NCBI GenBank assembly: GCA_905221615.1
Contig: CAJNDT010001301.1
Coordinates: forward strand, 1 to 64,000
DNA length: 64,000 nt
Direction of reading: 5' to 3'
DNA from: Symbiodinium sp. CCMP2592
Lineage: Eukaryota; Sar; Dinophyceae; Suessiales; Symbiodiniaceae
Both the position numbers and the translations under genes were made by a program. The notes under the pieces were generated by a model, which had not been told where the DNA came from, ran no database searches, and saw nothing but the letters and a program-made list of their open reading frames with translations. This document shows, in pieces, positions 14,879 through 39,254 of this stretch. Each line of letters starts with the position of its first letter. The first letter of the stretch is position 1.

Positions 14879-14900
14879 TGTGCGTGGGAGGGGGCAGGCA

Positions 14901-21210: not shown

Positions 21211-21467
21211 GACACGTTTCCGCGGGCGGATAACTCTTTCCACCTAAACTCCAAGGTTGTTTTATTTGAGGGAAATCCTTCGCCCTCAAAATGGCGACAA
21301 CCGCGAACCGTTTAATTGCATGATTTCAATCTTTTAAATTTGTGTGAAATCATGATTTTATCACACAAATGTTTTTATACCTGTCTGGTCTTTGCATGCA
21401 GTTCTTTTCACGCATGTCTCAGTTCCGAATGTTTAATGCACCGGCAGTTTGTAGCTCAAGTGGCTTT
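21211..21467 (+). repeat. YR-A split direct repeat A1
   Basis: 257 bp, nearly identical to 38665-38921 (A2). It starts GACACGTTTCC at the insertion point and ends at GTGGCTTT, exactly where the spliced-leader sequence begins. Confidence 0.9.
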
Positions 21468-21488
21468 CCGTAGCCATTTTGGCTCAAG
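21467..21488 (+). other. Dinoflagellate spliced-leader (DinoSL) relic
   Basis: All 22 positions match the known dinoflagellate spliced leader (starts TCCGTAGCC, ends TTGGCTCAAG). The leader is added to mRNAs by trans-splicing, so its presence in DNA marks an RNA-derived copy. Here it sits at the edge between A1 and the internal region of YR-A; A2 carries unrelated sequence at the matching edge (38922 onward). Confidence 0.9.
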
Positions 21489-21826
21489 GGGCTCGAGCAG
21501 CAGGCTTCGCGCATTGCTGTTCTCGAGGCTGCGGTGCTGGCCCTTCGCGGCGCTGACCCTAATCCCTAACCTGCCTCAGCCGATGCCCTTGCTTTCCGGC
21601 GGACCCCCAACCCTGGATAGTGCCACGCGGCCTCTTGAGGGTCGCCTCTTTTCCAGGGCTCCGCTACAATTTTGAGCTCAGGAGGACATCGTGCTAGAAA
21701 GCTCAGCGCTGTGCCCCGCAGTCTTGCGTGTTGCCTTGATTGCACATGTTGCAAGCCTTCCAAAACTTGGCTGAGCTTCGTCATGCAAGTTTTGTTTCAA
21801 GCTGTTGACCCAGGCTTTCTTCTGCC

Positions 21827-23324
21827 ATGGAATCCTTTGCGGCCGATTCCTGTGAATTAAGGGGTTCTACGGCCCAGGAACCTCCGCAGGAAGCCCCGGC
21901 TGAACCAGTCCCTATTCAGCCAGAGCCAGACCAAAACTCTCATCTTTCAGAAGGACAGCCTCGTTGCGAAAGCCCCGTCCGGTTGGAGGACGAACAAGGC
22001 GATCTCGAGTTTCAACAACATCTTGACGATTTGCTGTCCCGGGCTGGAAGTGACGCGAGGGACCAACTTGATCTTCAGGAGGCTGATGACGGCGCCTGCT
22101 TTGGAGTGAGTGGCTGGAGCGATCTCGGTTCCGCAGCCGAGGAAGCTTGGTACGGCGATGTGCGCCGGCCTGCCAGTGATGAAGCTGAGGCTTCAGTGTG
22201 GTCAGTTGTCGAACGTGGACCCGAAGCTCCGAAACTCTTGGCTTCGCCTATGGACGACAGGGATGTGCAAAGGGTTGCGGCGGAGCTTGAAAGGAAGCAG
22301 GCTGCCGAGACAGTGCCGAAACAAGCCTGGGAGCTCCCAGGCAGATTGAGCTACGCTTGGGAAGTTAAGAGACCTTTGAGGCTGATTGGCATCCCCGAGG
22401 TTGCTACCTCACTGGACCCCGAGCCGGCATTGGAGACGGAGCTTAATCTGAAGCTGAACCCCATGGTTCGAAAATACTTGGAAAGGATGCCTGTGCAGAG
22501 GTCCGAGGAAGAGGCTAGATCACACGCGCTAAAGAACTTGAAGTTTATGATCCTTTTCGACGTCGAGGCCACTCAGCTGGGGATGAGCCTAGCAGGCTTG
22601 GTCGGTCGTGCGGCTGAAGAAGACGAGATCAAAAGCTCTTTCGTGGCGGCTTTCCGCTTGAAGGCCACCAGCACCCTATGCAAGAGAACTTCGGCCCTTC
22701 TGAAGTTCTTTAGGTGGGCACTGAACGGCTCCCTGCACTCGCCGCTTTCTTTCGGTGAAAAGCACCTCTTCGACTACATGAAGGTTTTCCAGAGTGGCCA
22801 AGGGGGCCCCACTTCGGCCTCCCAGTTCCTGGAAGCTCTTCGCTTCTTGCATGGGGTGGCCGTCTTGAGGCACGTCGCCCTCGACGACTGCATCAGTGCA
22901 AGGGTCAAGGGTTTGGCAGCAGACCTCTACCTGACAAAGGCCCCCCTAAATCAACGGGATGAGCTCACTCTTAAGATGGTCGTGGCGCTGGAGACGGCTA
23001 TCGACATGGAGAACGACCGAGACGCTTGTATCATGGGGCAGCACTTATTCTGCCTACACTCGGGGGCGAGGTGGACGGATTCGCAAAGGCTGAAGTCAAT
23101 CACCGTGCAAACCTCCCATGGCGAGACCTTTGTGATTGCGGAAGGCCTCACCTCGAAGACTTCGAAGACTCAGGAGGCCAAAACCCGGCTGCTGCCCTAT
23201 GCAGCGATTGGATCGGGTGTAAAGCTTCCGTGGGCAAACCGTTGGCTCGAAGCTCGCCAAAACCAAGGATTGAAGCTTGGGGCCTTCACCCTGCCGGGCT
23301 GGTCGGAAACTTCCGGAGAATGGA
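21827..23324 (+). pseudogene. YR-A tyrosine recombinase, N-terminal part
   Basis: Starts at ATG 21827. An acidic, Pro/Gln-rich N-terminus is followed by a helical core-binding region and the first half of the catalytic domain, with the probable catalytic Arg at residue 415 (HSGARWTD, compare YSRARVSD in YR-B). YR-B cuts the frame after 23324 and the gene resumes at 32452. Skipping the insertion gives one frame of 733 codons, so the gene was intact before YR-B arrived. Confidence 0.85.
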
Positions 23325-23647
23325 CTTATTTCCAAATTCTGTTTCAGTATGTTCCCGCCAGGATACAATATATTTCTGTAGCGAAATATATTCGAAACAA
23401 AATAGATTCGGAATCTCAATCAATGTATGTGTTGCCAATGGAATATAAAAAGGATTGACAAGACGCTCGGCACACACTCTTTTTTAAAAGTCTGGCGAAA
23501 GCCGTCGCTCGGGGAATTCCGAGAAGTCGAGACGAAGTGAGATGGTCCCCCCGAGCATCCATGATGCTCCGCATGATGTACAGAAGTACATCATGCACAG
23601 TGCATTCGCAATGCACACATCGGATAGTCAGCGATTGACTCATCCCC
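23325..23647 (-). repeat. YR-B split direct repeat B2
   Basis: 323 bp, nearly identical to B1 at 23874-24195. Differences include a C/A near 23357 and one extra T in a T-run. It contains a copy of the last bases of pol and of the palindromic stretch ATGATGTACAGAAGTACATCAT. Confidence 0.9.
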
Positions 23648-23662
23648 GGGGAGGGCGGGCGG

Positions 23663-23873
23663 GACAAAAAATTTTTCCGACTTGATTCGGAAAAGCTGCA
23701 AGTTGCCATCATCATAACATGTTGAAGTGATGTTGTCGCAACAAGCATGCGTAAAAGTGTTGGTTTCAAAACACAGGTTGCAAGAGAAGGGGGGAAACAA
23801 AAGGAAAAACTCCCGTTTTTCCTTTCAAACAAAATTTGGAAATAAAACCCTGTCAATCACGATTGAAGGGTGG
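23663..23873 (-). repeat. YR-B split direct repeat A2
   Basis: About 211 bp, matching A1 at 32242-32451. It abuts B1 directly at the CTT core. A 15-bp G-rich spacer (23648-23662) separates it from B2. Confidence 0.9.
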
Positions 23874-24195
23874 CTTATTTCCAAATTCTGTTTCAGTATG
23901 TTCCCACCAGGATACAATATATTTCTGTAGCGAAATATATTCGAAACAAAATAGATTCGGAATCTCAATCAATGTATGTGTTGCCAATGGAATATAAAAA
24001 GGATTGACAAGACGCTCGGCACACACTCTTTTTAAAAGTCTGGCGAAAGCCGTCGCTCGGGGAATTCCGAGAAGTCGAGACGAAGTGAGATGGTCCCCCC
24101 GAGCATCCATGATGCTCCGCATGATGTACAGAAGTACATCATGCACAGTGCATTCGCAATGCACACATCGGATAGTCAGCGATTGACTCATCCCC
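23874..24195 (-). repeat. YR-B split direct repeat B1
   Basis: 322 bp, the internal partner of B2. The pol stop codon (24188-24190) lies just inside it, so the repeat overlaps the coding end, as it does in YR-A. Confidence 0.9.
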
Positions 24196-27100
24196 ACGGA
24201 ACCAACGCAGACTTTGCGATGCTCAGCGCATCCACTTCGAATCGCCGACCAAGGCTTTCATCTGAAATTCCACGAGAAGGGTCATCTGCGATGTTAGACG
24301 CGGTATTGACTCTTTCGAACCATGGTATGCAGCACACTGCATCGATGGCATCGTGGGTGGCATCCACAATGTGCATCCCGACAGAGTTGTCGGATGCCCC
24401 TTTGATCATGCAGGCACGAGTGCCTTCATTGTCCGAGAAGACGACGAGGTTGCATCCTTTAAGGAGTCCTCTCCAAACGTGTATGCACATAAGTACAGCC
24501 AAACATTCGCATTCGAAGATTGGGTTCTTGCTCTCGGGACCAACAAGATGTCGCAGCTCAGAAGAAGCCCACTCGCTGAAGTGTCCAACTTTCGTCCCAT
24601 TGTCCGATATGAGAACTCCACCGAGACCGATGCGATCGTTGTCGCAAGAAGCATCCACATACACATGCCAAAGATGCAAGACGTTGGCACTCAGAGCCCT
24701 CGGAGGCCCTTCAAGAAAACTGTCCCTCAGGAACAGAAGTGCAGCCCTCAAGTTGTCCCCGATGTTGGGGCTTCGCTCTGCAAGATGTTTGGACAGGGCC
24801 TTGAATGCGATGCCAGCTTTCTTTCCCGCGATCTGGTTGGCGGCAAACTGCAGGCGGCCCCTCAGCCTCTCGCAGTCTTTCCTAGCCAGCACTCCTTTTT
24901 CGATGATAGAAGAAAGACTTTCTCTCAGCTCCTCGCGTCGAGTCGTCGTATTCCTCATGTAGAAGTTGCCGAGGTAGGATTCGCGCAAGTCAAACTCCAG
25001 GCCTAAGACTTTTGCCACGCCTCCGAAGATGGTAGGCTTGTCTGGAGACGTGTCCCAGCCAAGGATCTGAAAGAGCGATTCAGCACAAAGGTCGAAGAGC
25101 CGTGTAAGTGGCGGGACTTCGTTGCCGACAAAGTCGTCGTAATACACTGACCACATCAAAGCCAGCTGAATCGCCCCAATCGTCCAGATGCCAAGTGAAG
25201 TTCTGCAGAACGAGTGGACCGACGCACGAGCGCCGAAGGGCAACACGCACTGCTCGTAGATCTCCGCCTTCCCCGACCGGGGGTTGTACACCGAGAGATA
25301 AGCTTCCTCCACCGCCGAAGTGCTCAAAGGAAGATTCTTATACGCCTTGTGTAAGTCATAAGATTTCATCTCGAGCCCGCCGTGCCGTCGGCACTTTGGG
25401 TCGCGCTTGAGACGGTAGGCAATGGAAGCGGCGATTGCATCCGCCGTGTGCACAGTCACCGAGTCTTCGGCTGAAGTCGTTGAGTTAACCCCAGAGGCCT
25501 TGAAGTCATCTATAGGCCTACACTTGCCGCCCTGCCAAACGCCGAAGCGGCGCGAGAGGACAGCACTAGGACCTAGCGAAGCAGGATCGATGGGTCCTCG
25601 TAACCACCCCTTGGCGACCTCCTTGTCAGTGGCCGCCATGAGGGCCTCATCAAGTTCGGGGTCCCCGGAACTTTTGGTGGCGAGAAGAGTTGCTTCCCTC
25701 ATCACAGCTGCAGAGCTCCGGAGATCAGATACGGATAAGGAAGCAGGTGACAGCTTGGGGCGATATGCAGGATTCCTCGGGATCGCACCACTGAGGTCAA
25801 AACCCTTGGCGATGTCATTCGCTATCTCTAGGTCCTCGTGGCCACACTCCTCGAGCATGGTCCTAAAAAGGACCAGCCGCTTCCGCCCCAAGACACGTTT
25901 GCAATGTTGCGGCATTGAGTCACGCAACTCCTCTTCCTCGGCCTCCAGCTCACGGGCCTTGCTGATCCAATGCCGGAGCCTCTCGGTGCGTTGGGCTCCT
26001 ATCTCATGAAGCGACATGTCAGCAAGACGGTCGATGGCCGCCTTGGAATGTGATGGCACACCGTCCAAGAGGTGACGGGGGTGCCCAGCTTTCAGTGCTT
26101 GCTCAATGAACTCCTGAGGTTTCCAAGGGATGCCTACGGCCACCTTGTGCATACGGCCACCTTCTGGATTGCTGCACGACGGGATCCCAGGTGGTGGCTT
26201 AGTCAAGGAGCTGGGGCCTAAACCAGACTTACGGGTGGCTGCCTCGGGACCGGCCGTTGGGCAGCACTCTGGGGAGCTTCCAGGGAGGCCGAAACCAAGG
26301 TCTTCAAGCTTTCTCTTCTGATCGTCAAGCAGTTTGTGGTGATCGCGTATCGCATAGGCAACAAGCGTGATCCTGGGTCCCCCACACCAAGGAGCTTGAC
26401 AGTGCCTACCACTCGGATCAAAGATTATTCGTCGGCCCTCGAAGTCAAGAACATTTCCCAAAAGCTCGGGGTGGCCAGGATCAGGACAAGCGACGGAGCC
26501 ACTAGGTGATTCGATCCACACTCCCCCTTGCTCGAAGGAGGAAATCTTCAAGACCGCATTCGGTAGTCCTGGCTCGTTGTTTCTATCGGTATGCACCTTG
26601 CCTGCGAGGTTCTTGCCCAGCATCAGGGAAGTGAAAGGATGGCCCGGGGCAACCCGGCGCACATACTCGCACAAGAGTTTGCTCACACTGGGGTGCGATG
26701 AGGTGTTGGAACGCAGGCCCACCTTGTTTGCATGAAAGAAGGCACCACATGACCAGGAGAATTCATCAGTGCCTCGTCCTCCCCTAGACGGGGTATCCGA
26801 GACAAGTAGCTCACACAAGTGGCAAATGCAGTCGCGCCATGCTTCGTTGCTGGCTGACGCTCCCAAGTGGAGAGCATAATGCGAGAAAGCTTCGGGGTCC
26901 ATCTGGTCGTCCTCCATGATGGCTGAGTTTCCATCATCCTCAGCCTCGGCATTAGGGGCAACTGTGGGATGCGACACAGGTGTGGATGAGGCGGCTGAGT
27001 TACTTGAGCACGATTCCTGCGCTCCAGCTGGCACAACCCCAATGACACTCTGGCGCAGGATCCGAGTGCCCGCGGGAAGCGTCGGCAGTGAGGGCGAGCA

Positions 27101-28234
27101 TGAGACACAAGGTGGAAGGGGGGTATCGGCTTCCAACTTACGCACGCCGGGAAAAAGGGGTTCAGGACTAAGAAGAACCACAATCTGCCGAAACTCGGGC
27201 ACAAGGGGTGGCACGCGCTTGCTGCGAGGTTGCACACCAGCTGCAACCTGAGACTCACGCAGGGGAAGGGCAGCACCAGGCGCTAGGTATGAAGCGGGTG
27301 CAGGGTGGCCACGTTCGGCGGCAGCACGGACAATGATGTCGGCCAAACGTTGGCAGAGCACACGAGGGTAGACCTTCTCGGCGGCTGTGTCGAAGGCACC
27401 TGAGGATCGCGACCAGGGCAGGTGGCGATGAGATGTTGATTCCCCCGGGCAGAGAAGGGATAGCTCGTGTAGCAAAGGGACATTATGGGCTAGGCGGGTG
27501 AGCTTGGCACGCTCACCGCCGTGTTGGCAGTTATGAAAAAGGGTTTCCTCAAACTGCAGGTCGGCAACGGCAGTGAGCCACATGGTCGTTTGCCAGAAGT
27601 AAGAGCGGCCTGGATTCTCGCAAGAGACGAGCTTCCCAGAACGGATGCAGTGTGCAAAGATCTTGCCAGTGACGGCATAAAGGTCGTTGGCCTTAGCAAC
27701 GCGAATGCGGAGCTCGCCAGTGAGGTCTGGTAGCCCATCCGGGTGGGCATCACTTCTCGCGGGAGCGGGTAGGTTTTCACCGCGACGAAAAATTTCACGA
27801 GCACGACTCGCTGTTCCACAAGGGGGAGCGATGTGCACATAAAGGCAAAAGGGAGAATCGATCAGATCAAGAACCATCTTTACATGTTCGGGATCAAGGA
27901 GGTCCAGCTTAAGGACGGGAGAAATCATTTGCTTTGGGGCAACATGGTCGATTCCGATGCTATCTCGGAACCCTGCACGTCGAAGTTCGGCAGTAAGCCT
28001 GCCTGAGCCTGAGAAAATTTCAATGCAGAAGAGGGAATCAATCCTGAAAGCATCAGCACCGCAAAGAGAGTGCCCGGCATCAAGTAGCGGCCCCTCCACA
28101 GGGCTCGCAGCCTCAGCAGGACGAGAAGGAAAACAATGCGATTTGCTGGAAGCAGCGGCCGATGCTTGCGGGGTTGAGGCGCTCAGTGAAGCATCCAATG
28201 AAACACTGGGCGATGGAAAACACGGTGCTGGCAC
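24188..28234 (-). CDS. YR-B pol: C5-methyltransferase-like, 2OG-oxygenase-like, RT, RNase H
   Basis: 1,348 codons from 28234 (a GTG). The frame is open back to the Gag TGA at 28262-28264, so it is probably made as a Gag-Pol readthrough product. C5-cytosine-methyltransferase-like domain, residues 68-275: FSGSG at 74 (SAM motif I), PPC at 137-139 with the candidate nucleophile Cys139, ENP at 206. 2OG/Fe(II)-oxygenase-like domain, about 490-630: H548-x-D550, H611, R621. RT: D960 (SYDLHKAY), LPFGARAS, YYDD 1031-1034. RNase H: D1194, E1241/E1243, D1268, D1317. The methyltransferase lacks a clear QxRxR motif, so activity is uncertain. All RT and RNase H catalytic residues are present. The domain order differs from YR-A. 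Confidence 0.85.
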   Translation of the reverse strand: MPAPCFPSPSVSLDASLSASTPQASAAASSKSHCFPSRPAEAASPVEGPLLDAGHSLCGADAFRIDSLFCIEIFSGSGRLTAELRRAGFRDSIGIDHVAPKQMISPVLKLDLLDPEHVKMVLDLIDSPFCLYVHIAPPCGTASRAREIFRRGENLPAPARSDAHPDGLPDLTGELRIRVAKANDLYAVTGKIFAHCIRSGKLVSCENPGRSYFWQTTMWLTAVADLQFEETLFHNCQHGGERAKLTRLAHNVPLLHELSLLCPGESTSHRHLPWSRSSGAFDTAAEKVYPRVLCQRLADIIVRAAAERGHPAPASYLAPGAALPLRESQVAAGVQPRSKRVPPLVPEFRQIVVLLSPEPLFPGVRKLEADTPLPPCVSCSPSLPTLPAGTRILRQSVIGVVPAGAQESCSSNSAASSTPVSHPTVAPNAEAEDDGNSAIMEDDQMDPEAFSHYALHLGASASNEAWRDCICHLCELLVSDTPSRGGRGTDEFSWSCGAFFHANKVGLRSNTSSHPSVSKLLCEYVRRVAPGHPFTSLMLGKNLAGKVHTDRNNEPGLPNAVLKISSFEQGGVWIESPSGSVACPDPGHPELLGNVLDFEGRRIIFDPSGRHCQAPWCGGPRITLVAYAIRDHHKLLDDQKRKLEDLGFGLPGSSPECCPTAGPEAATRKSGLGPSSLTKPPPGIPSCSNPEGGRMHKVAVGIPWKPQEFIEQALKAGHPRHLLDGVPSHSKAAIDRLADMSLHEIGAQRTERLRHWISKARELEAEEEELRDSMPQHCKRVLGRKRLVLFRTMLEECGHEDLEIANDIAKGFDLSGAIPRNPAYRPKLSPASLSVSDLRSSAAVMREATLLATKSSGDPELDEALMAATDKEVAKGWLRGPIDPASLGPSAVLSRRFGVWQGGKCRPIDDFKASGVNSTTSAEDSVTVHTADAIAASIAYRLKRDPKCRRHGGLEMKSYDLHKAYKNLPLSTSAVEEAYLSVYNPRSGKAEIYEQCVLPFGARASVHSFCRTSLGIWTIGAIQLALMWSVYYDDFVGNEVPPLTRLFDLCAESLFQILGWDTSPDKPTIFGGVAKVLGLEFDLRESYLGNFYMRNTTTRREELRESLSSIIEKGVLARKDCERLRGRLQFAANQIAGKKAGIAFKALSKHLAERSPNIGDNLRAALLFLRDSFLEGPPRALSANVLHLWHVYVDASCDNDRIGLGGVLISDNGTKVGHFSEWASSELRHLVGPESKNPIFECECLAVLMCIHVWRGLLKGCNLVVFSDNEGTRACMIKGASDNSVGMHIVDATHDAIDAVCCIPWFERVNTASNIADDPSRGISDESLGRRFEVDALSIAKSALVPWG

Positions 28235-28261
28235 GCTGTCGGGCTCAGGCAGGCATGCGCT

Positions 28262-29455
28262 TCATGGCTTCTTTGGACACGCATGCGCGGGGTGGTGACC
28301 ACCACAACGCATGCAGTTGTGCAGACCCCTGGGGCAGGATTGGCCGACCTTGGCATTAGGACACCCACTAGCCATATTGAATCCCCAGCAGCGGCGCTTT
28401 CCGGTCTTAGTCCAAGACGAAAGGCCCTTGAGTTCTTCTGGAAGATTGCTAGGCTCGCGCAACGTCTTGGTTTTTCCCTTGCCGGTACCTTTGCGCTGCT
28501 TCTTGGTCGGGGTGTCTGTGGGCTCAGGTTTGAGCTCGGTGCTCTCCCGCTTGAGGGCACCACCTTCTCGCGGGAGGAGATGAAAAATCACCTTCGGGTC
28601 AGTCTGCAAGCGGGCCCACAAACTGTCAAGAGGCAAAGCCCCGGATGCATCTCGACGAATCCCGTCGGGGGTAAGCTCTGCCAGGCGCATCCAGGCAGCA
28701 CGGTCCGCATGCAGAATTTGTTGCACAGAAGTGGCACGGCTGCCAGCAATGGGCTCCTGATGAAGGTGGCCCAAGAGGAAATCCACGAAGCCCTGAATCC
28801 TAAAGTAATCAGTCACACCGATCAAGTCAAGAGCAAGGCTTCGGCGGTGCATGGCATGGTGAAGGCTCAGTGCAGTGGAAGTATCGCATGACTGATCGGG
28901 GTCACGATCTCTCACGACCAGTGTTGAAGCCTGCACATCCAACTCCTTCCGTGGTTTCTCGGAACGCAGCTCAGCTTCACGAGTGATGAACTTTGCCGGG
29001 GAAAGGTAGCTGATGCAGTTATCAGTAAGGAGCTTCATGCAGAGGTCATACGAGGCGTAGCTGCACTCAGTCTGGCCAGACATGGTGATGCCTCTAAGTT
29101 TGTTGGCCTGTGCTCGGATGCGCTCGCGGCGCTCCGCGGGGGCTAACTCCTTGACCTCGTTCTCCTTGTTCTCAACGAGTGCCTTGGTCTGGCTGACCAA
29201 GAGGGTCTGTGCTTCGAACACCAGGTGTCGAACCGCTGCGATGGATCCCAACGGCGGGGCTGCACCTCCCACCTTGATGAGGGCCGACAACGACTCCTCG
29301 GTCGGCGTCTCGCCGGGCTGGCAAGGGGCGAACGCCAGCTTCGCCATCGTGTCGATGGTCTGTGCAACAAGGCGATCCACTGCTTCCTGAGGGAGGCCCA
29401 CACGTTTGGCTCGCTCCAGGAAGACTGCCTTGGACTCTACAAGGGTTTGCGCCAT
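28262..29455 (-). CDS. YR-B Gag-like protein with CCCH/zinc-knuckle end
   Basis: Start chosen at ATG 29455; an upstream GTG at 29476 is in the same frame. About 397 aa, homologous along its length to the Gag-like ORF of YR-A (shared words FEAQ, LSPAKF/LPPGKYLS, RRSLA(L/F)DL). A basic GKGKTK linker precedes a Cys/His cluster of the form Cx8Cx8Cx4H followed by CxxCx6HxC, probably nucleic-acid binding. It ends in TGA and is followed in the same frame by pol with no further stop. Confidence 0.8.
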   Translation of the reverse strand: MAQTLVESKAVFLERAKRVGLPQEAVDRLVAQTIDTMAKLAFAPCQPGETPTEESLSALIKVGGAAPPLGSIAAVRHLVFEAQTLLVSQTKALVENKENEVKELAPAERRERIRAQANKLRGITMSGQTECSYASYDLCMKLLTDNCISYLSPAKFITREAELRSEKPRKELDVQASTLVVRDRDPDQSCDTSTALSLHHAMHRRSLALDLIGVTDYFRIQGFVDFLLGHLHQEPIAGSRATSVQQILHADRAAWMRLAELTPDGIRRDASGALPLDSLWARLQTDPKVIFHLLPREGGALKRESTELKPEPTDTPTKKQRKGTGKGKTKTLREPSNLPEELKGLSSWTKTGKRRCWGFNMASGCPNAKVGQSCPRGLHNCMRCGGHHPAHACPKKP

Positions 29456-29785
29456 GATCTCCGATCCTATGTGCACTCACAGAAACTGGTCTTGAGACAC
29501 GCACATGCAAAGGACCAATCATGCACACAGTGATTGCAAGCTTTGCATGTGGACAGCTCACTGCTGGTCATCATCGCATCGCCGAGCTTGGTCCGCCCGT
29601 CCGGACCCCGTGGCGGCCACGAGGTAAACCAAAGGTTCCACTGAAACCCTTGTTTGCCCGGACGAGTCTCCGAACCATGCTCTGGGTCGGTGCGCAATTG
29701 ACCACTCGTCCATCAGACATGACTGTGAAGCTCAGCGATACACTGAAGTGGTGATCCGCAAGCATCGCACGTCACACGACATTTC

Positions 29786-31741
29786 TCACTTAGAAGCGCC
29801 CTGCTTCTTAGCGATGAAACTCGCTATGGCCCCTGCGTCGCGGAGGGGCCGGCCTGCTGTGCATTGCTTGCACAGCCATCTACTGCTGAAGACCTTTCCA
29901 CTGAAAGGCTTCATATTGTCAAGCGACCTTCCACAGATCAACTTGCCAGTAGAACCCTTCGCTCGTGAGTGAAGGCTCTTGGTCTTCGGGTTCTGAAAAA
30001 TGTCTAAATCAGGGCCCATGTTCACAGACGGGATCGCATTCTGCGCTTCGCCTGCTCCAAAACTCTCATAATGAGTCTCCTCCTCGGACTCACCGGAACT
30101 CTCAGACTCGCTGCTCGAGGCTTCGTGAACGTCTTCTTGTTCACCCAGGTCCTGATCATCAGGAGGTTCTACGCCTCCATCCTCGGCCAGCTCAACCTCG
30201 GGAGCGCACTCGAAGCTCTCGTGAGATGGCGAAAGATTGGCACGCCCCAAGGGTGCCAAAGAGAAACGCGACTCACGGATGGTCGCACCTCCTGCAATCA
30301 TCCCGCTCTTCGTGCGATCCGGATGGAAAACCCCCTGCCGGATGGCACCAAGACATTCTGCAAGATCTCGTAGCGGCTGCGCCTGCACTTCGCGAGCGTA
30401 AGCTTCTTGCGTTTTCCCACTTGGACCTAAGCTGTGGTGTCCCAGGACAAGTTGCGTCCTCTCACTGTATCCAGCCTTCGAGGTCCAAGAAAGCGGCGTT
30501 GCCTTCAAACCGTGCGAGGAGAATGTAAGATCTTCTTCGGCCGCTTGCAGCCGTGAAAGCAGCGCCCTGATCCATGTAGTGGTCTCGTTGGCATCGATGG
30601 CATCCCCGCTCCAAGAGTAATCGCAGGCCAGGCGGGGGAGCAACGGCCCGCGATGCCCCTTCTCGAAGTCGAAGCCAACGGCCTTCGCCGCCTCTGCCCA
30701 AGCGGCGCCCCAAGGCTTCTGGTGGAGCCCATGGTACGGCGCAACCAAAATGAGCACGGCCCCCGGTCCACTGCTCAACCGGCAATTCTTGTGCTCATAA
30801 GTTCTGACCTCGATGAAACCCGTATCGCCATCAAGGTCAAGCTCAAGCTTCGAAATGTTCCTCAGATCGGACACTCGAGCCCTGGAGTAAAGCTGGAACA
30901 AGAAGACCCCTGTAGCGTACCTGTCCACCTTGTCAAGGGCTCCCTCTATCAGCGCTCCTTCGAGGAGGAGCACCTCCTCGACCTTCAGGACTCTCGAACG
31001 TCTCGGGTCACAGGTGCGAATGTTGGCTCCCCGCAGCGCACCCTTGACCCAAGGGTTGTCACTGATTCCTTGTTCGACCTCAATTCCGAGAACATGTTCC
31101 AGGAAATTCACAGTTTCCATAGCCTCACGAATGGCACTGTTCCTGGCTTCGGCTGCAAGTGGTTTGAGGAAGCTCACAAGAAAATCGAGGCTCACCGGGA
31201 AAGCCTTCACATGATGCTTGTCGGCCCAACAAATGAATCGTGCAGAAAATCGGGCTCGCTTAAGCAAAGTCGATGTTGCTTTCCCAGCCAAGGCCTGCGC
31301 CACGACCCCCAAGGGGTCAGATTCGCCTTTCGCCCAAATGAGAACCCCCAACCTCGAGGCACCAGGTGAGTGACTCAGAACACAGAGCCACCGACGTAGG
31401 ACATTTTCCCGATCGACACCGGCCTTCTCGCCTGCCTGTAGCCTGGGCTTCTTAAGCACAGCCTCAAAGACAGGCACAACCTTGGTACACTGCAGAGCCA
31501 CCGGCAGCGGCTCATCTGAATCACCCGGCCGCCTGTACTGCGTGGCTGGCGGCGGCACGACTCTTGGCACCTTGACGCTATGAAGGTCGACGCTTCTGCC
31601 TGGTTTTCCTGAGAAAATGGCAGACAAGGCCTTATTCCTGTCCCACGGATAGCTGAGTGGGGCCACAACATCATGAGTCAAGTGCTGGAGGTGTTGCTCG
31701 AAACGATCACATAGATCGGAGGCCGAAGCTTCAGCAGCCAT
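29786..31741 (-). CDS. YR-B tyrosine recombinase
   Basis: 651 aa from ATG 31741; an in-frame TTG lies upstream at 31762. It catalyses integration of the element's DNA copy. Catalytic residues, numbered from the ATG: R289 (YSRARVSD), K318 candidate, H410xxK413 (HGLKAT), H435 (LGHH), Y448 (AYAREV). All are present, so the enzyme looks intact. The C-terminus is acidic and ends in a conserved cluster, LICGR ... CKQC, also found in YR-A (FFCGR ... CIQC). This may be a zinc site. About 330 bp separate it from the Gag start. Confidence 0.9.
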   Translation of the reverse strand: MAAEASASDLCDRFEQHLQHLTHDVVAPLSYPWDRNKALSAIFSGKPGRSVDLHSVKVPRVVPPPATQYRRPGDSDEPLPVALQCTKVVPVFEAVLKKPRLQAGEKAGVDRENVLRRWLCVLSHSPGASRLGVLIWAKGESDPLGVVAQALAGKATSTLLKRARFSARFICWADKHHVKAFPVSLDFLVSFLKPLAAEARNSAIREAMETVNFLEHVLGIEVEQGISDNPWVKGALRGANIRTCDPRRSRVLKVEEVLLLEGALIEGALDKVDRYATGVFLFQLYSRARVSDLRNISKLELDLDGDTGFIEVRTYEHKNCRLSSGPGAVLILVAPYHGLHQKPWGAAWAEAAKAVGFDFEKGHRGPLLPRLACDYSWSGDAIDANETTTWIRALLSRLQAAEEDLTFSSHGLKATPLSWTSKAGYSERTQLVLGHHSLGPSGKTQEAYAREVQAQPLRDLAECLGAIRQGVFHPDRTKSGMIAGGATIRESRFSLAPLGRANLSPSHESFECAPEVELAEDGGVEPPDDQDLGEQEDVHEASSSESESSGESEEETHYESFGAGEAQNAIPSVNMGPDLDIFQNPKTKSLHSRAKGSTGKLICGRSLDNMKPFSGKVFSSRWLCKQCTAGRPLRDAGAIASFIAKKQGASK

Positions 31742-32241
31742 CGAAGAGACCCCACGAGCCAAGGCCCTGAAGCGAGGCCGTGCTCACGGCAGGGGCTGCA
31801 GACCAGCCCTAATTGCAACGAAGAGGATTTCCTGCAAGAAATCGCTGCGAGTGGAAGCACTCGAAGCCAGCAGAGCTGATCTAGCAGCAGGATCAAGGAA
31901 GTTCCACAGCGTAATCGTCACTCGCACTTTGCACACGGCTCCCGATGCAAAAACGCAATCAAAACTAAGATCGCTGAAGTGAGAGCTCGCTGAGGTACTT
32001 GCCAAAGACGCGGAGGACTCACTGCCCTCGTAGTCCATGCAGCGACCCGCCCCACTCGCTAGAAGCACCAGATTAGCACCCAGGGCCTTTTAGAAAGATC
32101 CTAGACGTGTCTACCGGGTGGCCTGCCACACCTACCAGTGCTCACTCCCCTTGCAGCGAGAGCAAGCCCTCAAGCCACTATTCCGTCGGGGGAACCCTGG
32201 CAACGGTGTGCGGCACCACAGCAGAAGGATCTCGAGGCTCA
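31742..32241 (-). other. YR-B leader region
   Basis: 500 bp between A1 and the recombinase ATG with no ORF of note. Unlike YR-A, I see no recognisable spliced-leader relic at its A1 edge (near 32241). Confidence 0.6.
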
Positions 32242-32451
32242 GACAAAAATTTTTCCGACTTGATTCGGAAAAGCTGCAAGTTGCCATCATCATAACATGT
32301 TGAAGTGATGTTGTCGCAACAAGCATGCGTAAAAGTGTTGGTTTCAAAACACAGGTTGCAAGAGAAGGGGGGAAACAAAAGGAAAAACTCCCGTTTTTCC
32401 TTTCAAACAAAATTTGGAAATAAAACCCTGTCAATCACGATTGAAGGGTGG
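32242..32451 (-). repeat. YR-B split direct repeat A1
   Basis: About 210 bp, matching A2 at 23663-23873 except for one A in the A-run near 32246. It ends at the CTT shared with the target (32452-32454). Confidence 0.9.
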
Positions 32452-33155
32452 CTTCCCTGCCTATGTTAGCGGGGGAGGCTACCTCTTGGTTGCAAGATTT
32501 CCTCTTGAGGGCTGGCTTTGAAGAGGAAGAAGTCCTGAAGCGCGGCTCCCACTCGCTGAAGGCGACACTTACTACTTGGACCTCCCGGTGCCCGACGGTC
32601 TCTTTCTCCTCTGGTGACCAGAGGTTGGTGGGCCATCACGTGAAGCCCAAAGACAAGTCTCCTTTGATCTACTCTAGGCAGGCATACACCGCTCTCTACG
32701 GCAAGATCCTCGCGATGTTCATTGACATTCGTGAGGGACGCTATGATCCGGATTTGCCGGAGGTTGATAGAGTCCTCGCTGCAGCCGCTGAAAACTCGCA
32801 TAGAAGGCCAACTGAGCCTAAGGCAAACACGATCCCTCCCGCAATCGGGCCTCTCGATGAGGCTAGCGGAGAGGAGGGTGGCTCGACTTCCGAAGGGAGC
32901 GAGGAAGCACTCTCGGGGGAAGACCGAGCCGATGTGGCGAGAGCACCTTTTCAGCAGCCGGTGGACTTGGAACTTGTTTACGTGCACCGGGTGTCAGGCG
33001 TTGTTCACTGCCTGAAGGACCCTCGAAGCACGGATTTCTTTTGTGGTCGTTTCTTGACCGCAGCGTACATGAAATTCGGAAGGGCCGGCGCGGCAGCAGC
33101 AGATCCAGATTGCTGCATTCAGTGCCGGAGAGCGCGCGACCGGGAGCCGGTTTGA
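32452..33155 (+). pseudogene. YR-A tyrosine recombinase, C-terminal part
   Basis: Continues the gene interrupted at 23324. It holds the second half of the catalytic domain: HSLKAT (HxxK box), GHH, and the probable nucleophile Tyr in IYSR, aligned with AYAR of YR-B. The tail is acidic and ends in FFCGR and CCIQC, the same Cys pattern as in YR-B. A GTG at 32448 and ATG codons inside allow only a truncated product. The stop is at 33153-33155, 181 bp before the Gag ATG. Confidence 0.85.
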
Positions 33156-33336
33156 GGCGAGCTTTCGACGATCAGAGGAGATCTGGGCCTTGGCCCATCC
33201 TCGCACCTTTGCCTGCATGCAGCTTAGGCAAAACATGGTGTGTCGTCGGTCTCAGTGACAGCCTGCAGTTATCGCACGAATGTCTGTTTGTATGAGGCGC
33301 TTGACTCAAGTCACTTAGCGCTAGAGGGTTGCGAGC

Positions 33337-34542
33337 ATGGCCGGAGTGACATTGGACTCGGAAGCAGCCTTTAAAGAACGTGCTTTGAAGGTGGGACTCT
33401 CTGCTGCAAATCACGCCACCCTGGAAGCGCAGGGATACAGCACTTTTGGCGCCTTGGCTTTCGCAGTTTCAGCCTCGCCCAACAGCGTCAGCGAGGAAGA
33501 GGTCAAGGAATGGATTCGTGCAGTCTTCACACCGGCACCCGACCACCACCAGGTTTCCTGCTTGCGACGTTTGCTTTTCGAGGCCCAGGCCCTCTCAATC
33601 AGTGACATGAAGAACCGAGTGGAGCCTTCAAACGATTTCGTCACCAGGAAGATGCCAGTTGCCGAGCGCCTTGCCAGGCAAAAGGCGCAGGAATCCCGGC
33701 TCACAGGGATACATTTTTCGCCAGAGACCACACCATCCCATGGTGTGGTAGATCGACTTGTGGAAATGCTTGAAACCGGGACACTAGTCTACCTGCCTCC
33801 CGGTAAGTACCTCTCAAGGGCTCAGGAAATTCAGTCGGCCAAAGCAGACAAAGCTTTGTCGATTGATTCAGATGGAAACCTTAAGGTCACTTCCAAGCTT
33901 GACAAGTTCGAACATTGTGACACGGGTTCCGAGTGGACCCTTCGCCAGGCTTGGGCGAGAAGGAGCCTCGCCTTTGATCTTGCGGGCCTCGCGACATATC
34001 AGGCCATGGAGGCTTGGGTGCATAAGCTTTTTGTGACACTTGAGCGGCCTTCCCCTCCTGGCTACCACGGAGTGGCGTTGACTCAAATCGTGGCAGCCGA
34101 TCGTCACTTGTTCACCCTGGCCGCCTCCAATCTGCTAGGAGCCCTTGCTGCCGCCCCGGGCCGCGTCAAACCGCTTGATGAACAGCTTAAGCTCCTCAGC
34201 GATCACAGTGATGTGTTGCAGTTTCTGAATCACCTGCCTGCCCAGAGCTTGCCGTCCAATCCTCTCAAGCGCTCCGAGAAAGGTGACACCCCCAAAGGCC
34301 GAGGCAAAGGCAAAGGCAAGAAAGGCAAGGATCGTGGAACTGCTGCTTCCATTACCGTGCCTGAGGGAGCAGTCACTAAGGTGAATGACAAACCTGTGTG
34401 TTTCGCCTTTAACTGCGGCTCCTGCAAGTTCAAGGTGTCCAAGAAAGGCAGGTGCGGGCGAGGCTTTCACCTGTGTTGGTGGAAAAGCTGTGGTGGTGCC
34501 CACCCGGGGCACGAGTGCACAAAGGCTCGCCCGAATCAGTGA
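33337..34542 (+). CDS. YR-A Gag-like protein with zinc-knuckle end
   Basis: 401 aa from ATG 33337. The N-terminal two thirds are helical and resemble the YR-B Gag. A basic stretch (GRGKGKGKKGKDRG) is followed by a Cys/His cluster (CFAFNCGSCKF ... CGRGFHLC ... CGGAHPGHEC), probably for binding element RNA. It terminates in TGA at 34540-34542, in the same frame as the downstream pol. This stop is the candidate readthrough site. Confidence 0.8.
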   Translation: MAGVTLDSEAAFKERALKVGLSAANHATLEAQGYSTFGALAFAVSASPNSVSEEEVKEWIRAVFTPAPDHHQVSCLRRLLFEAQALSISDMKNRVEPSNDFVTRKMPVAERLARQKAQESRLTGIHFSPETTPSHGVVDRLVEMLETGTLVYLPPGKYLSRAQEIQSAKADKALSIDSDGNLKVTSKLDKFEHCDTGSEWTLRQAWARRSLAFDLAGLATYQAMEAWVHKLFVTLERPSPPGYHGVALTQIVAADRHLFTLAASNLLGALAAAPGRVKPLDEQLKLLSDHSDVLQFLNHLPAQSLPSNPLKRSEKGDTPKGRGKGKGKKGKDRGTAASITVPEGAVTKVNDKPVCFAFNCGSCKFKVSKKGRCGRGFHLCWWKSCGGAHPGHECTKARPNQ

Positions 34543-34569
34543 AAGCCCGCAGGGACCGCGGCGCACCCT

Positions 34570-37500
34570 GTGGATTCCCAGTCGTCGCAGTGCCAGGCAA
34601 ATGTGCTTGCAGAGCCAAGGGGCCCTCCTTTGCACCCTGCCGAAATCTTTGCAACATCCCTTTTGGAACTTTCTTCGGCCAGTCGTGTAGATTTGCTGAA
34701 GCTTTTTGACTTGCTCCCTCACGAGGATGCGCCTACTGCTGGGCGTGCAGAAGCTGGAGGTTTTTCCTTCGGCACCGGCACCTGGGTGCATGGAAACCTT
34801 GTGGGATTGCGAAACAACTGCCGCCTTTTCCCTTTAAGCACTAAAGTTTTTACTCGTTTTGTGTTGCAGGAGTGCCCCAGCCACTCCTTTTCTGCCATAG
34901 TCATCCTTGACAACGTTTGCACTGTCGCGCACCGCGACACTCATAACCTAGAGTCGGCTCGCAATGCTGTTTTCGGGCTGTCTGATTACTCAGGCGGCGA
35001 AGTCTGGGTCCAGAATGCTCAGGGCCTCACGCCCCTGGAGGTGAATGGCAAGAGGCTTCTGGGAGTTGCTTTGCCAACGATCCCGGGCCCTGCTGTCTTC
35101 TCAGCCAGATCGGCCCTACATGCGACCTTACCATGGTCTGGCCGCCGTGTAGTCTTAGTTGCGTACACAACAAATTTCATCGACAAATTGTCGACCGCTG
35201 ATGCTGACTTCGCTTCCAGCTTGGGCTTTGCCGCGTGTCAGCATTCTATCCACAAGCTGAGCCGCCAGCCTTTTGCGGTGGAGGTCTTCAGCGGCACCGC
35301 TGTTTTGTCTCGGGCCCTCTTCGCCGCTGGCTTTGCAACTCTGGCCGTCGATCACCGGCCTCGCGCCGCTCTTATGCCAACAGTGCGCTTGGATCTCGCT
35401 CAAGAGGCCCAGCAAGATCTGCTTATGGATCGTCTTCGAGCAACCCCTCCTGATGCAGTGCATATAGCCCCGCCTTGCGGTACCGCCAGCCGAGCCCGTG
35501 AGCGCCCCCTGCCATCAGCGCTGCTGAAACAGGGCGTTCGAGAGCCCAAGCCCTTGCGATCTGCTCGGTATCCCTTGGGTTTGCCAAGCCTTGACAAAGC
35601 CTCATCTCAATACCACCGCGTGCGGCAGGCAAACCTGCTCTACCTCTTCACTTTCAACTTGGTCTGCTGGGCGCTTGAGAATGCTGTGCCTTTCACGCTT
35701 GAGAATCCCGCCAACAGTCACTTTTGGGCCGTTTTTGCTTCGCTGGCTCGTGCCCGCCCTAAAGCTGCCTGGCATCGCTTCAGCCACAGAACCTTTCAGG
35801 TGGAGTTTGATCACTGCATGTATGGCGGGGCTCGGCCGAAAACTACGCGGTTGCTCACCAATTGCAAGCAGATGGCCGACTTGTGTGCCCGTTGCGATCG
35901 CTCTCATGATCACGCCCCTTGGGGGGCTCAGCGCGGGCCCCATGGCTGGGTTTTCGCCACTCACCTCGAGGCTTCCTATCCCGTCCAGCTTGCTGAAGCC
36001 TTGGCTGCACGCTTCAGCGCCCAAGCTCAGGCCTCTGGCCTCTCCTTTTGCCCACGGCCGCTGGACGTGCAACATGCTGCTTACGCCGCCCAGGGCGTGC
36101 AGCATCGCAAGAGTCAGCCTCTCATCTCCGAGTTTGCCGCCATAAAGCATGTGCCCAAGTCGGCCGTCGACGACTCTTGCATGAAGGTTCTCACGGCCCC
36201 AATGATTGGGGTGAAGACGGGGGGCCTGCCGAAACCCTCTGACCATGAGCCTTCGTCCATTTTCGAGCACCCTGGGCCCCCAGAGGGAAACCCTGTCCCC
36301 TCGCCTGCCTCTTCGGGTTTAGTCCCCAACCCCTTGTGTGAAACCCCGCGGCACGCAGGACCCGAGCCTGGTGCGGGGCAGGGGATGGTTACCGTTGGGG
36401 TTTATCGTAGTCCCGAAGTGTGGGTAAAGGAGGCCCTTAAGCTGCCGCATCCGATGGACTCGAATAACCCTCTGGCCGAAGCCACCATGATGGCCATCAA
36501 GGAAAATCTTACTTCGGAGGCTAAGGTGCTTAAGCTTAAGCAAAAGATTGCCCTGACTAAGATGGAGATCCGGGCCAAGCAACTTGAGTCGCAGGAGAGA
36601 GCACTGCATCAGTCAAAGCCACCTTGGATGCAAAAAGTCCTCAAAGGAAAGCGCATTCTGTTGCTGCGCGACCTGTTGTCGCAGCACGGTTTTGATGACA
36701 TGGGGGTCGTGGACCTCGTTAGCGACGGGTCACATCTAGTGGGGTCCGCTCCGAAGCCCGAATGCTTTGAAACGCGCGTTAGGCTGGCAAAGCTCTCTCC
36801 CGAGGCCTTAAGAGCTGCAGCCCAGGACTTGAGGAAAGCCATCCTTGCAAATCCCAGGAAAGTCTCTGCGGACGAGGCGGCTGAACTTCGGAAGGTCTCA
36901 GATGAAGAGACGGCTGAAGGTTTCCTCTCGGGACCGTTCGAGTCCGAGGATGCAGTGTCAGACCACCTCGGAACCCAAGATTGGGTGGCTGTGAGGAGAT
37001 TTCTCCTTCAGCAGTCCGATAAGAAGCGTCCCATTGATGACGGCCACGAGGCCCACCTCAACGATGCTTATGGGTCGGCCATCCGCTTGAGGCTCCAGGA
37101 TAGTGCGTACTTTACGGCCATGGCACTGGCTGTTGCAAAGATGCAAAAGGACCTGGGTGTGCATGTTCCATGGAAGGTCAAATGCCTAGACTTGTCGAAG
37201 GCTTACAAACAATTTTGTGTAAGCGAGCGGGATAGGTGCCTTTCGGTTATAGTCATTTTCGACGAAAAAGGAAAGCCAACCTGGTATGTGGCGAACGCCT
37301 TAATGTTTGGTGCCGCTGCCAGCGTTTTTAGCTTTAACCGTATAAGTCGGGCCATACATTTCTTGTTCACCAAAGTCTTGAACGTGGTGTGCTCGTACTT
37401 CTATGATGACTACCCGATGTTATCCCGCTCCGACATGGCAGAGGCAACTGATGAGGCGTGCGGCCGCATGCTGAGTCTGCTTGGCATCCGATATGCCGAG

Positions 37501-38400
37501 ACGGGGACTGGATCCAAAGGTTTGCCCTTCGATGCATCATGCAGTGTTCTGGGACTCAAAATGTCAGTGGAACATCTTCACTTGGGGAAGCTCTCGATTT
37601 CAAACAAACCGGGAAGAATAGAGCGGCTCGTGGAGTTGTTTGGCAAGGTCAAAGCCGAGGGATCGATGACAAAGCATTTTGGCCAGGTGTTGCTTGGACT
37701 TTTGCGTTTTGCGGCAGGCTCATGTGTGGGCATGTCGCTAAATCACATTTGCGCTGACTTGAATAGGATAGTCCATGGTGAAGCTTTTCCCTCTCCCGAG
37801 GAGTTTGCAAAGCTTTGTGATCGGGCTTTGGATTTTCTTGGCAGTGCCCGTCCAAGGGAGGTGAAGGTGTCAGATCGAAAGGAGGTGGTTCACATCTTCA
37901 CGGATGGGTCTCTTGAAGGCGACTTCGCTGGCATAGGGGCCGTGATGATTGATTCGGCCGACGGCTTCACGCGTGTGTTGCAAGGTGAGCTCCCGCCTGA
38001 GCTCAGGAACGCATGGCGAAACGAGGCCAGCGAACACTTGATCTGCCAGGTCGAGTTATATGCGATTTTCTGTGCAAAGCTTGTTTTCCGGGAACGGCTG
38101 GAGGGCAGGCGAGTCGTCTATTGGATAGACAATGAGCCTGCACGTCTAGCCCTTGTGAAGGGCGTGAGCAGATCTTGCATTATGGATCGCATGCTTCGCG
38201 AGCTGTGTAGGCTTGAAGACAACATGATCTCCTACGCGTGGTACGCTCGAGTACCGTCGAAGTCGAACATCGCCGACGGACCTTCAAGGGGCAAGGGCGA
38301 TGATGTGGCCAGAGCGTTGGGCCTGGTCAGTGCAGAGACGTTCCCTGGATGCATTCCATGGCAGCACTTGTTATGGGGGCAATCGGGTGCTGACACATAG
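34570..38400 (+). CDS. YR-A pol: 2OG-oxygenase-like, C5-methyltransferase-like, RT, RNase H
   Basis: 1,276 codons from 34570 (GTG); the frame is open back to 34543, directly after the Gag TGA. 2OG/Fe(II)-oxygenase-like domain first (about 65-205): H121-x-D123, GGEVW, H184, R192. C5-methyltransferase-like domain next (about 233-470): FSGTA at 240, PPC 301-303 with candidate Cys303, ENP 378-380, YGGARPKTTRLLTN. A coiled-coil-like linker (about 640-680) follows. RT: D874 (CLDLSKAY), LMFGAAAS, FYDD 944-947. RNase H: D1112, E1162, D1187, D1236. All catalytic positions of RT and RNase H are kept. The last codons lie in repeat B1. Confidence 0.85.
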   Translation: MDSQSSQCQANVLAEPRGPPLHPAEIFATSLLELSSASRVDLLKLFDLLPHEDAPTAGRAEAGGFSFGTGTWVHGNLVGLRNNCRLFPLSTKVFTRFVLQECPSHSFSAIVILDNVCTVAHRDTHNLESARNAVFGLSDYSGGEVWVQNAQGLTPLEVNGKRLLGVALPTIPGPAVFSARSALHATLPWSGRRVVLVAYTTNFIDKLSTADADFASSLGFAACQHSIHKLSRQPFAVEVFSGTAVLSRALFAAGFATLAVDHRPRAALMPTVRLDLAQEAQQDLLMDRLRATPPDAVHIAPPCGTASRARERPLPSALLKQGVREPKPLRSARYPLGLPSLDKASSQYHRVRQANLLYLFTFNLVCWALENAVPFTLENPANSHFWAVFASLARARPKAAWHRFSHRTFQVEFDHCMYGGARPKTTRLLTNCKQMADLCARCDRSHDHAPWGAQRGPHGWVFATHLEASYPVQLAEALAARFSAQAQASGLSFCPRPLDVQHAAYAAQGVQHRKSQPLISEFAAIKHVPKSAVDDSCMKVLTAPMIGVKTGGLPKPSDHEPSSIFEHPGPPEGNPVPSPASSGLVPNPLCETPRHAGPEPGAGQGMVTVGVYRSPEVWVKEALKLPHPMDSNNPLAEATMMAIKENLTSEAKVLKLKQKIALTKMEIRAKQLESQERALHQSKPPWMQKVLKGKRILLLRDLLSQHGFDDMGVVDLVSDGSHLVGSAPKPECFETRVRLAKLSPEALRAAAQDLRKAILANPRKVSADEAAELRKVSDEETAEGFLSGPFESEDAVSDHLGTQDWVAVRRFLLQQSDKKRPIDDGHEAHLNDAYGSAIRLRLQDSAYFTAMALAVAKMQKDLGVHVPWKVKCLDLSKAYKQFCVSERDRCLSVIVIFDEKGKPTWYVANALMFGAAASVFSFNRISRAIHFLFTKVLNVVCSYFYDDYPMLSRSDMAEATDEACGRMLSLLGIRYAETGTGSKGLPFDASCSVLGLKMSVEHLHLGKLSISNKPGRIERLVELFGKVKAEGSMTKHFGQVLLGLLRFAAGSCVGMSLNHICADLNRIVHGEAFPSPEEFAKLCDRALDFLGSARPREVKVSDRKEVVHIFTDGSLEGDFAGIGAVMIDSADGFTRVLQGELPPELRNAWRNEASEHLICQVELYAIFCAKLVFRERLEGRRVVYWIDNEPARLALVKGVSRSCIMDRMLRELCRLEDNMISYAWYARVPSKSNIADGPSRGKGDDVARALGLVSAETFPGCIPWQHLLWGQSGADT

Positions 38401-38664
38401 CGGATTCTCTTACCGCAAACCGCTTTGTGGAAACTCTACCACACGTGTTATGCACCGAAGTTGTCGGTGCGAAAACCCTTTTCGAACAGCCCCTTTCGAG
38501 TGCTCGGAAGAAAAGAGATCGCGACTTCAGTTGTGCGAATATATTCGGGAGCATTTTTGATAACTGGCTCCAATACTTATTATATTCTCGGGCATTCTTT
38601 ATATTGAGCCCGGATACTGTTTCACGAATCTTTATGCAATATACGGTTCTGGAGTTTTGTGGAA
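38375..38664 (+). repeat. YR-A split direct repeat B1
   Basis: 290 bp, matching B2 at 38965-39254. It contains the pol stop (38398-38400) and ends GTGGAA directly at the start of A2. Confidence 0.9.
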
Positions 38665-38921
38665 GACACGTTTCCGCGGGCGGATAACTCTTTCCACCTA
38701 AACTCCAAGGTTGTTTTATTTGAGGGAAATCCCTCGCCCTCAAAATGGCGACAACCGCGAACCGTTTAATTGCATGATTTCAATCTTTTAAATTTGTGTG
38801 AAATCATGATTTTATCACACAAATGTTTTTATACCTGTCTGGTCTTTGCATGCAGTTCTTTTCACGCATGTCTCAGTTCCGAATGTTTAATGCACCGGCA
38901 GTTTGTAGCTCAAGTGGCTTT
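38665..38921 (+). repeat. YR-A split direct repeat A2
   Basis: 257 bp, nearly identical to A1 (21211-21467; CCTTC versus CCCTC near 38732). The 43-bp spacer to B2 (38922-38964) contains AAAATTTTTGTCCCACCC, a word also found near the A/B2 edge of YR-B in the form AAATTTTTTGTCCCGCCC. Confidence 0.9.
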
Positions 38922-38964
38922 GGGAGCCACAAAGAAAATTTTTGTCCCACCCACCCACTCCTGG

Positions 38965-39254
38965 GGGGGCAATCGGGTGCTGACACATAGCGGATTCTCT
39001 TACCGCAAACCGCTTTGTGGAAACTCTACCACACGTGTTATGCACCGAAGTTGTCGGTGCGAAAACCCTTTTCGAACAGCCCCTTTCGAGTGCTCGGAAG
39101 AAAAGAGATCGCGACTTCAGTTGTGCGAATATATTCGGGAGCATTTTTGATAACTGGCTCCAATACTTATTATATTCTCGGGCATTCTTTATATTGAGCC
39201 CGGATACTGTTTCACGAATCTTTATGCAATATACGGTTCTGGAGTTTTGTGGAA
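38965..39254 (+). repeat. YR-A split direct repeat B2
   Basis: 290 bp. It ends GTGGAA, after which ORF2 of L2 resumes at 39255 with no target duplication. Confidence 0.9.

Follow-up and report, generated by a model that had tools for sequence, protein, structure and literature searches.

A stretch of 64,000 nucleotides from Symbiodinium sp. CCMP2592 (contig CAJNDT010001301.1, positions 1 to 64,000; here called the window) contains two nested retrotransposons, YR-A and YR-B, whose Pol polyproteins combine a reverse transcriptase (RT) and RNase H with two further domains. An earlier note, made from the sequence alone, had read these as a C5-cytosine methyltransferase and a 2-oxoglutarate (2OG) oxygenase, of the class that includes the TET/JBP base oxidases, with which the element may mark or unmark its own DNA. 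The locus raises the question whether a retrotransposon can modify the DNA that it makes. Both domains are under purifying selection, and the preservation of the fused domains by selection suggests that these elements chemically mark their own DNA. We lean slightly towards the reading that the compact C5-methyltransferase-type domain and the TET/JBP-type dioxygenase-type domain work as enzymes for the element.

Two fused domains in Pol

Both pol open reading frames (ORFs) are open and lie where the earlier note had placed them, and RT and RNase H follow downstream in the same frame, as it had described: our own profiles locate both in either Pol, and Pfam RT_RNaseH matches the YR-B protein at E 5.4e-6, with RVT_1 weak (0.22 and 0.005). 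The methylase and oxygenase domains stand in opposite order in the two proteins (Table 1). The profiles were seeded from the two window pols and iterated over 144 database relatives (P0001 being the window's own pol), which together with the two window proteins make a family set of 146. Over residues 60-660 the YR-B pol is 100% identical to a database protein of Symbiodinium sp. CCMP2592. The methylase profile matches 142 of these and the oxygenase profile 47; 83 proteins read methylase-RT-RNase H, 25 oxygenase-methylase-RT-RNase H and seven methylase-oxygenase-RT-RNase H, the rest being partial or split. A methylase is found in 43 of the 47 oxygenase proteins; of the four without one, P0009, P0010 and P0011 start less than 100 residues from the oxygenase, where a methylase may have been cut off. 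In this set the methylase is the common part of the family and the oxygenase an accessory part. On an RT tree (FastTree, 125 rows) oxygenase presence needs 11 changes; from this we claim no numbers of gains or losses, as many rows may be N-terminally incomplete and the tree is a FastTree. A further protein search gave 366 methylase relatives, with no Pfam annotation among the matches listed (120 of 366). Five methylase-RT pols (P0024, P0091, P0109, P0124 and P0128) carry Pfam DUF4326 (PF14216) as an accessory domain, and the public names of the retrotransposon pols P0001, P0057, P0063 and P0142 (ubiad1, NaCP60E, kptA and dnajb6-b) are possibly misannotations or fused gene models.

The FSG, PPC and ENP motifs that had been noticed in both pols are borne out (starting at residues 74, 137 and 206 in YR-B, and 240, 301 and 378 in YR-A), and because they are conserved columns of the protein family they are more than chance. 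Of the 137 filled methylase rows (142 rows in total), 130 retain both the Cys of motif IV (PPC) and the Glu of motif VI (EN), and the two window proteins are among them. Predicted structures for YR-A and YR-B match C5-cytosine methyltransferases and have the Rossmann fold of the C5 type, with DNA enzymes as the best matches; this supports the C5 reading despite the lack of a PF00145 match, and we regard the C5-methyltransferase fold as highly probable. We rejected an adenine methylase of the Dam type, known from other DIRS elements, because of the PPC/ENP motif and the C5 folds. Only ~40-50 residues lie between the R.K and EAxYP motifs, in the target-recognition region, and small phage methylases match too; judging by the sequence, a target-recognition domain of appreciable size seems to be missing from the methylase. 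Beside this short region, C186, C212, H216 and H218 (A4 positions) are invariant in ten aligned members, and these two Cys and two His may form a metal site. The best sequence-profile row for the methylase was DNMT2, which is not significant (E 0.069), and NCBIfam held nothing relevant for it. A direct viral source was considered and set aside: two methylase profiles gave 32 and 89 IMG/VR pattern matches, of which none could be confirmed as a relative, and tblastn of one methylase domain against phage records found no match.

For the oxygenase, the metal and 2OG ligands proposed earlier were confirmed in both proteins (Table 1). The HxD...H...R set is intact in 35 of 41 filled rows (47 in total), and the Asn of HxDxxN, which we take to resemble the base contact of TET, is present in all 42 filled rows. 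Pfam Tet_JBP (PF12851) matches the YR-A domain alone at E 2.7e-6 (27.1 bits, the curated cut-off being 34.9 bits), and no other 2OG Pfam family matched among 12 oxygenase pieces; on whole proteins Tet_JBP matches 3 of 42 (23 oxygenase-bearing) and 0 of 35 (13 oxygenase-bearing). PHROGs gave chance-level rows only (best E 0.013). In Foldseek, the YR-A model had TET2 as its first row, then CcTet, ALKBH5 and a bacterial 2OG oxygenase; many 2OG dioxygenases stand among the rows at a probability near 1. Among viral models, a phage 2OGFeDO JBP1/TET oxygenase came third, behind two nameless rows, and a small phage DNA methylase was among the closest named. Structure prediction, which the earlier note had offered as a check on its own reading, returned both a C5 and a 2OG fold match, so that the refuting outcome it had named did not occur, and the TET/AlkB-type matches together with Tet_JBP speak for the oxygenase as it had been described. 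Going by the models, the domain is very probably a 2OG dioxygenase, and there is a good chance that it is nearer to TET/JBP than to AlkB.

Both domains could instead act on RNA: an RNA 5-methylcytosine writer and an AlkB-like eraser would alter or mend the RNA genome of the element, a role ascribed to AlkB domains in plant RNA viruses. AlkB, ALKBH5 and the bacterial 2OG oxygenase 6n1f are indeed among the best fold matches, picornavirus-like polyproteins occur in the list of matching viral models, and the best methylase profile row, though not significant, is DNMT2; de Mendoza et al. (PMC5890265) have suggested a possible RNA role for a DNMT of the LINE (long interspersed nuclear element) type. 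This has to be set against Tet_JBP as the only 2OG Pfam family matched, the Asn found in every filled row, which resembles a TET base contact, and the DNA enzymes that head the methylase fold matches, and we consider an action on RNA distinctly unlikely.

Copies, selection and possible action on cDNA

We read both elements as DIRS-like retrotransposons of Symbiodinium that use a putative tyrosine recombinase and have been mobile recently. Both have an RT with RNase H, a methylase in the RT ORF, the ORF order putative recombinase, gag-like, pol, and split direct repeats in the arrangement A-coding-B-A-B. The repeat copies are 99-100% identical, and the two insertions are therefore taken as young; in YR-A, 21208-21467 resembles 38662-38921 at 99.2%, and 38375-38664 equals 38965-39254 at 100%. 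The insertion site of YR-B lies within the YR-A recombinase ORF: the flanks joined across YR-B read through in frame, which is weak alone as many nearby joins do likewise, and an alignment of the joined product to the YR-B recombinase runs through the junction. The two recombinases are homologous (24% identity, E 2e-17) and both show R .. HxxK .. GHH .. Y by eye; the YR-B recombinase ORF has no Pfam match. By eye, AAG is repeated at the YR-B element junctions.

YR-A has at least 37 genomic matches, of which 16 span residue 1-2 to 1274-1276 and all 16 are open; for YR-B there are at least 36, with 14 of 15 full-length copies open. Both counts are lower bounds. In YR-A (8 copies, seven of them compared with the copy in the window at 88-99% identity), the ratio of nonsynonymous to synonymous change (dN/dS) is 0.085 for the methylase and 0.128 for the oxygenase, next to 0.078 for RT, 0.104 for RNase H, 0.181 for the N-terminus and 0.379 for the linker. 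The corresponding pN/pS values in YR-B (14 equal-length copies, of which one contains a stop; an open copy that differs in length was omitted) are 0.236, 0.137, 0.070, 0.075 and 0.287, with 0.332 and 0.795 for the linkers. One might suppose that captured folds were retained as structural, nucleic-acid-binding modules that have lost catalysis, and catalytic residues are in fact lost in 7 of the 137 filled rows for the methylase and in 6 of the 41 for the oxygenase, the methylase seems short of a sizeable target-recognition domain, and its pN/pS in YR-B stands well above that of RT. Yet the catalytic residues checked are invariant in all 14 YR-B and 8 YR-A copies, and the YR-A dN/dS is close to the RT value; decay of this kind seems to us very improbable, and it is likely that both domains are functional for the element.

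The domains and their predicted folds, the intact active sites, purifying selection, multicopy spread and near-identical terminal repeats are seen in the data; catalysis, its substrate, the order of action and the benefit are inferred. Because the methylase and oxygenase share a polyprotein with RT, complementary DNA (cDNA) is the obvious substrate. The RT-tethered methylase would add a 5-methyl group to cytosines of newly made cDNA, and the oxygenase would then oxidise part of this 5-methylcytosine (5mC) to 5-hydroxymethylcytosine or further, much as a methylase acting with an oxygenase of the TET type gives phages their modified cytosines. The gain would probably be that the cDNA is taken as self by host nucleases or silencing, or alternatively that the fresh copy escapes full CG methylation, which is usual in Symbiodinium. 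We give this route from 5mC to oxidised 5mC on cDNA roughly even chances. In DIRS elements, cDNA is made before integration by the tyrosine recombinase, and for retrotransposon DNMTs, which can methylate CG de novo, self-methylation of cDNA has been proposed, as described by de Mendoza et al. 2018 (PMC5890265).

The strongest rival to 5mC oxidation, because dinoflagellate DNA is rich in 5-hydroxymethyluracil (5-hmU), is that the oxygenase hydroxylates thymine, so that the cDNA comes to resemble host DNA, with the methylase providing a separate second mark. JBP1 and JBP2 hydroxylate thymine, and 5-hmU replaces 12-70% of thymine in dinoflagellate DNA. The matched Pfam family takes in JBP besides TET, and the four Tet_JBP matches in the 1.1-Gb genome (best 29.6 bits) all lie inside YR-A-like pol ORFs, two of which were read and are oxygenase-methylase-RT-RNase H; this exon-by-exon search also had no match in 14 control genomes, which left it without a positive control, and a six-frame search could overlook host TET/JBP genes whose exons are short. 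That 5-hmU is abundant in dinoflagellates (PMC6723414) and about twofold enriched in multimapping, probably repetitive, reads of Breviolum (PMC11071213) has been reported. The methylase carried by nearly all oxygenase proteins, in turn, hints at 5mC as the substrate, and the thymine route appears to us fairly unlikely. A bolder version has retrotransposons as the main, perhaps only readily recognisable, carriers of TET/JBP-type domains in Symbiodinium, their enzyme making (or having made, before host takeover) dinoflagellate 5-hmU and, with the methylase, writing a phage-like double modification into their own cDNA. Since 1973 this base has counted as a hallmark of dinoflagellate DNA that lacks an explanation; we rate this version as quite improbable.

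A number of results weigh against enzymes that methylate and then oxidise cDNA. Neither domain reaches a curated Pfam cut-off. PF00145 (DNA_methylase) matches no member in three sets that overlap in part (0 of 42, 0 of 35 and 0 of 10), phrog_757 is matched by other family members (one of four given singly) and not by YR-B's own domain, and hhalign against three other C5 ORFs failed. Tet_JBP matches three of the 12 oxygenase pieces, none at the Pfam cut-off; YR-B's own oxygenase has no Pfam match, and the oxygenase profile found no solved TET and nothing relevant among the sequences of solved structures. For YR-B, Foldseek placed a bacterial 2OG oxygenase (6n1f among the best) and AlkB ahead of CcTet, TET2, T7H and NgTET1; the TET rows have low TM-scores (0.15-0.35) and root-mean-square deviations of mostly 7-13 Å because the alignments ran over two-domain models, and the VIA alignments fell outside the oxygenase part. 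Some relatives without an oxygenase may have been truncated at the N-terminus.

Other points touch selection and order of action. The YR-B methylase pN/pS is more than three times the RT value. Of 138 filled methylase rows, six (P0008, P0022, P0051, P0057, P0063 and P0139) have lost the catalytic Cys, and all of these but P0022 bear an oxygenase (Fisher p 0.009), which misfits a strict methylate-then-oxidise order in every member. Four of the five keep H, D, N, H and R (P0051 has R in place of the first H), so that the oxygenase may not need the methylase, a point in favour of thymine as substrate. CpG observed/expected is 0.83 for 24188-28234 and 0.80 for 34570-38400, versus 0.67-0.75 in three neighbouring long ORFs. 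Both pol genes are thus free of any mark of heavy self-methylation, although neither insertion is old.

Table 1. Features of the nested elements YR-A and YR-B, with positions in the window.
Feature	Position	Strand	Basis
YR-A, DIRS-like element split by YR-B	21208..39254	+	Terminal repeats
YR-A recombinase ORF, first part	21809..23325	+	ORF, homology to YR-B recombinase
YR-A recombinase ORF, second part, beyond YR-B insertion	32453..33155	+	ORF, homology to YR-B recombinase
YR-A gag-like ORF	33325..34542	+	No Pfam match; gag putative
YR-A pol: oxygenase - methylase - RT - RNase H	34570..38400	+	ORF, Pfam, own profiles
YR-A TET/JBP-like oxygenase domain	34696..35229	+	Residues 43-220; H121, D123, N126, H184, R192; Pfam Tet_JBP, fold
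YR-A C5-methyltransferase-like domain	35272..36021	+	Residues 235-484; C303, E378; profile, fold
YR-A RT region	36391..37761	+	Residues 608-1064; own profile
YR-A RNase H	37831..38289	+	Residues 1088-1240; own profile
YR-B, DIRS-like element (A-coding-B-A-B)	23326..32453	-	Limits common to several genomic copies, repeats; end positions may be off by a few bases
YR-B repeat A, copy 1 (5' end)	32245..32454	-	210 nt, 100% identical to 23667-23876
YR-B ORF, putative tyrosine recombinase	29786..31783	-	R .. HGLK .. GHH .. Y by eye
YR-B gag-like ORF, C-terminal Cys/His cluster	28262..29476	-	Best Pfam row chance-level, E 0.28; gag putative
YR-B pol: methylase - oxygenase - RT - RNase H	24188..28234	-	ORF, Pfam, own profiles
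YR-B C5-methyltransferase-like domain	27323..28030	-	Residues 69-304; C139, E206; profile, fold
YR-B TET/JBP-like oxygenase domain	26291..26827	-	Residues 470-648; H548, D550, N553, H611, R621; profile, fold
YR-B RT region	24791..26137	-	Residues 700-1148; own profile
YR-B RNase H	24272..24742	-	Residues 1165-1321; Pfam, own profile
YR-B repeat B, copy 1	23877..24195	-	99% to copy 2
YR-B repeat A, copy 2	23667..23876	-	Match to copy 1
YR-B repeat B, copy 2 (3' end)	23326..23647	-	Match to copy 1; limits in genomic copies

Elsewhere in the window, very long plus-strand ORFs with 711/855-nt direct repeats lie at 3579-9050, 14787-21167 and 47483-53938 (the ORF 3579-9047 has no Pfam match), LINE-like ORFs with Exo_endo_phos and RVT_1 at 9625-11959 and 39154-43125, and an array of ~1022-nt repeats, AT-richer than the rest and with 85-nt inverted repeats, at 59685-63966.

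Comparison with known systems

The closest known elements are SymbioDIRS-Dnmt3, described in the main text of PMC5890265: DIRS-like retrotransposons of Symbiodinium with A-coding-B-A-B repeats, two architectures, and a methyltransferase under purifying selection in the Pol ORF with RT. The earlier note had left it open whether the present family is the same; the kind of element is, whereas the DNMTs of that study were sought with PF00145 and group with Dnmt3, and the methylases of YR-A and YR-B have no PF00145 match. Identity with that Dnmt3 is thus not supported by PF00145. The words TET, JBP, oxygenase and hydroxymethyl are absent from the same main text. PF00145 itself finds 124 places in the genome; seven of them (L024 to L028, L037 and L038) show no RT-profile match better than E 0.47, and among these only L026 stands out with our methylase profile (E 0.0044). 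L037 (G000:C2879:274900-279300) has a 1467-residue frame with a PF00145 match and no RT-profile match in the stretch examined.

Fungal TET/JBP transposons (Kyakuja and others, PMC12730594) likewise carry a TET/JBP-type dioxygenase, mostly undisrupted, on a mobile element; in contrast to YR-A and YR-B they are DNA transposons and Helitrons, a fused methylase is not mentioned in the available part of that survey, and it states explicitly that in fungi no retrotransposon with a TET/JBP-type domain was found. Among the matches listed from the open-licence literature (titles and abstracts, with term searches in PMC5890265, PMC6338049 and PMC12477816), we found no report of such an oxygenase in a retrotransposon. 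Other DIRS-class elements pair a tyrosine-recombinase retrotransposon with a methylase as well, there a Dam-like N6-adenine enzyme rather than one with PPC/ENP motifs and a C5 fold. The same predicted pair, C5-methyltransferase and TET/JBP-type oxygenase, is found in phage base-modification sets, as separate proteins and often with glycosyltransferases according to PMC12730594, whereas in YR-A and YR-B it is fused to a eukaryotic RT.

Methylase-bearing DIRS elements in Symbiodinium are already published; what YR-A and YR-B add is a methylase that PF00145 does not recognise and, before or after it, a second domain that is predicted to oxidise. If our reading is true, the case of the methylase-bearing retrotransposon extends to a two-step modification system with predicted enzymes for both writing and oxidising DNA bases, and retrotransposons, where the fungal survey found none, would include carriers of a TET/JBP-type domain. 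The locus provides two concrete, clonable domains with which the self-marking of cDNA by retrotransposons could be probed, and it points to a candidate type of enzyme for dinoflagellate 5-hmU.

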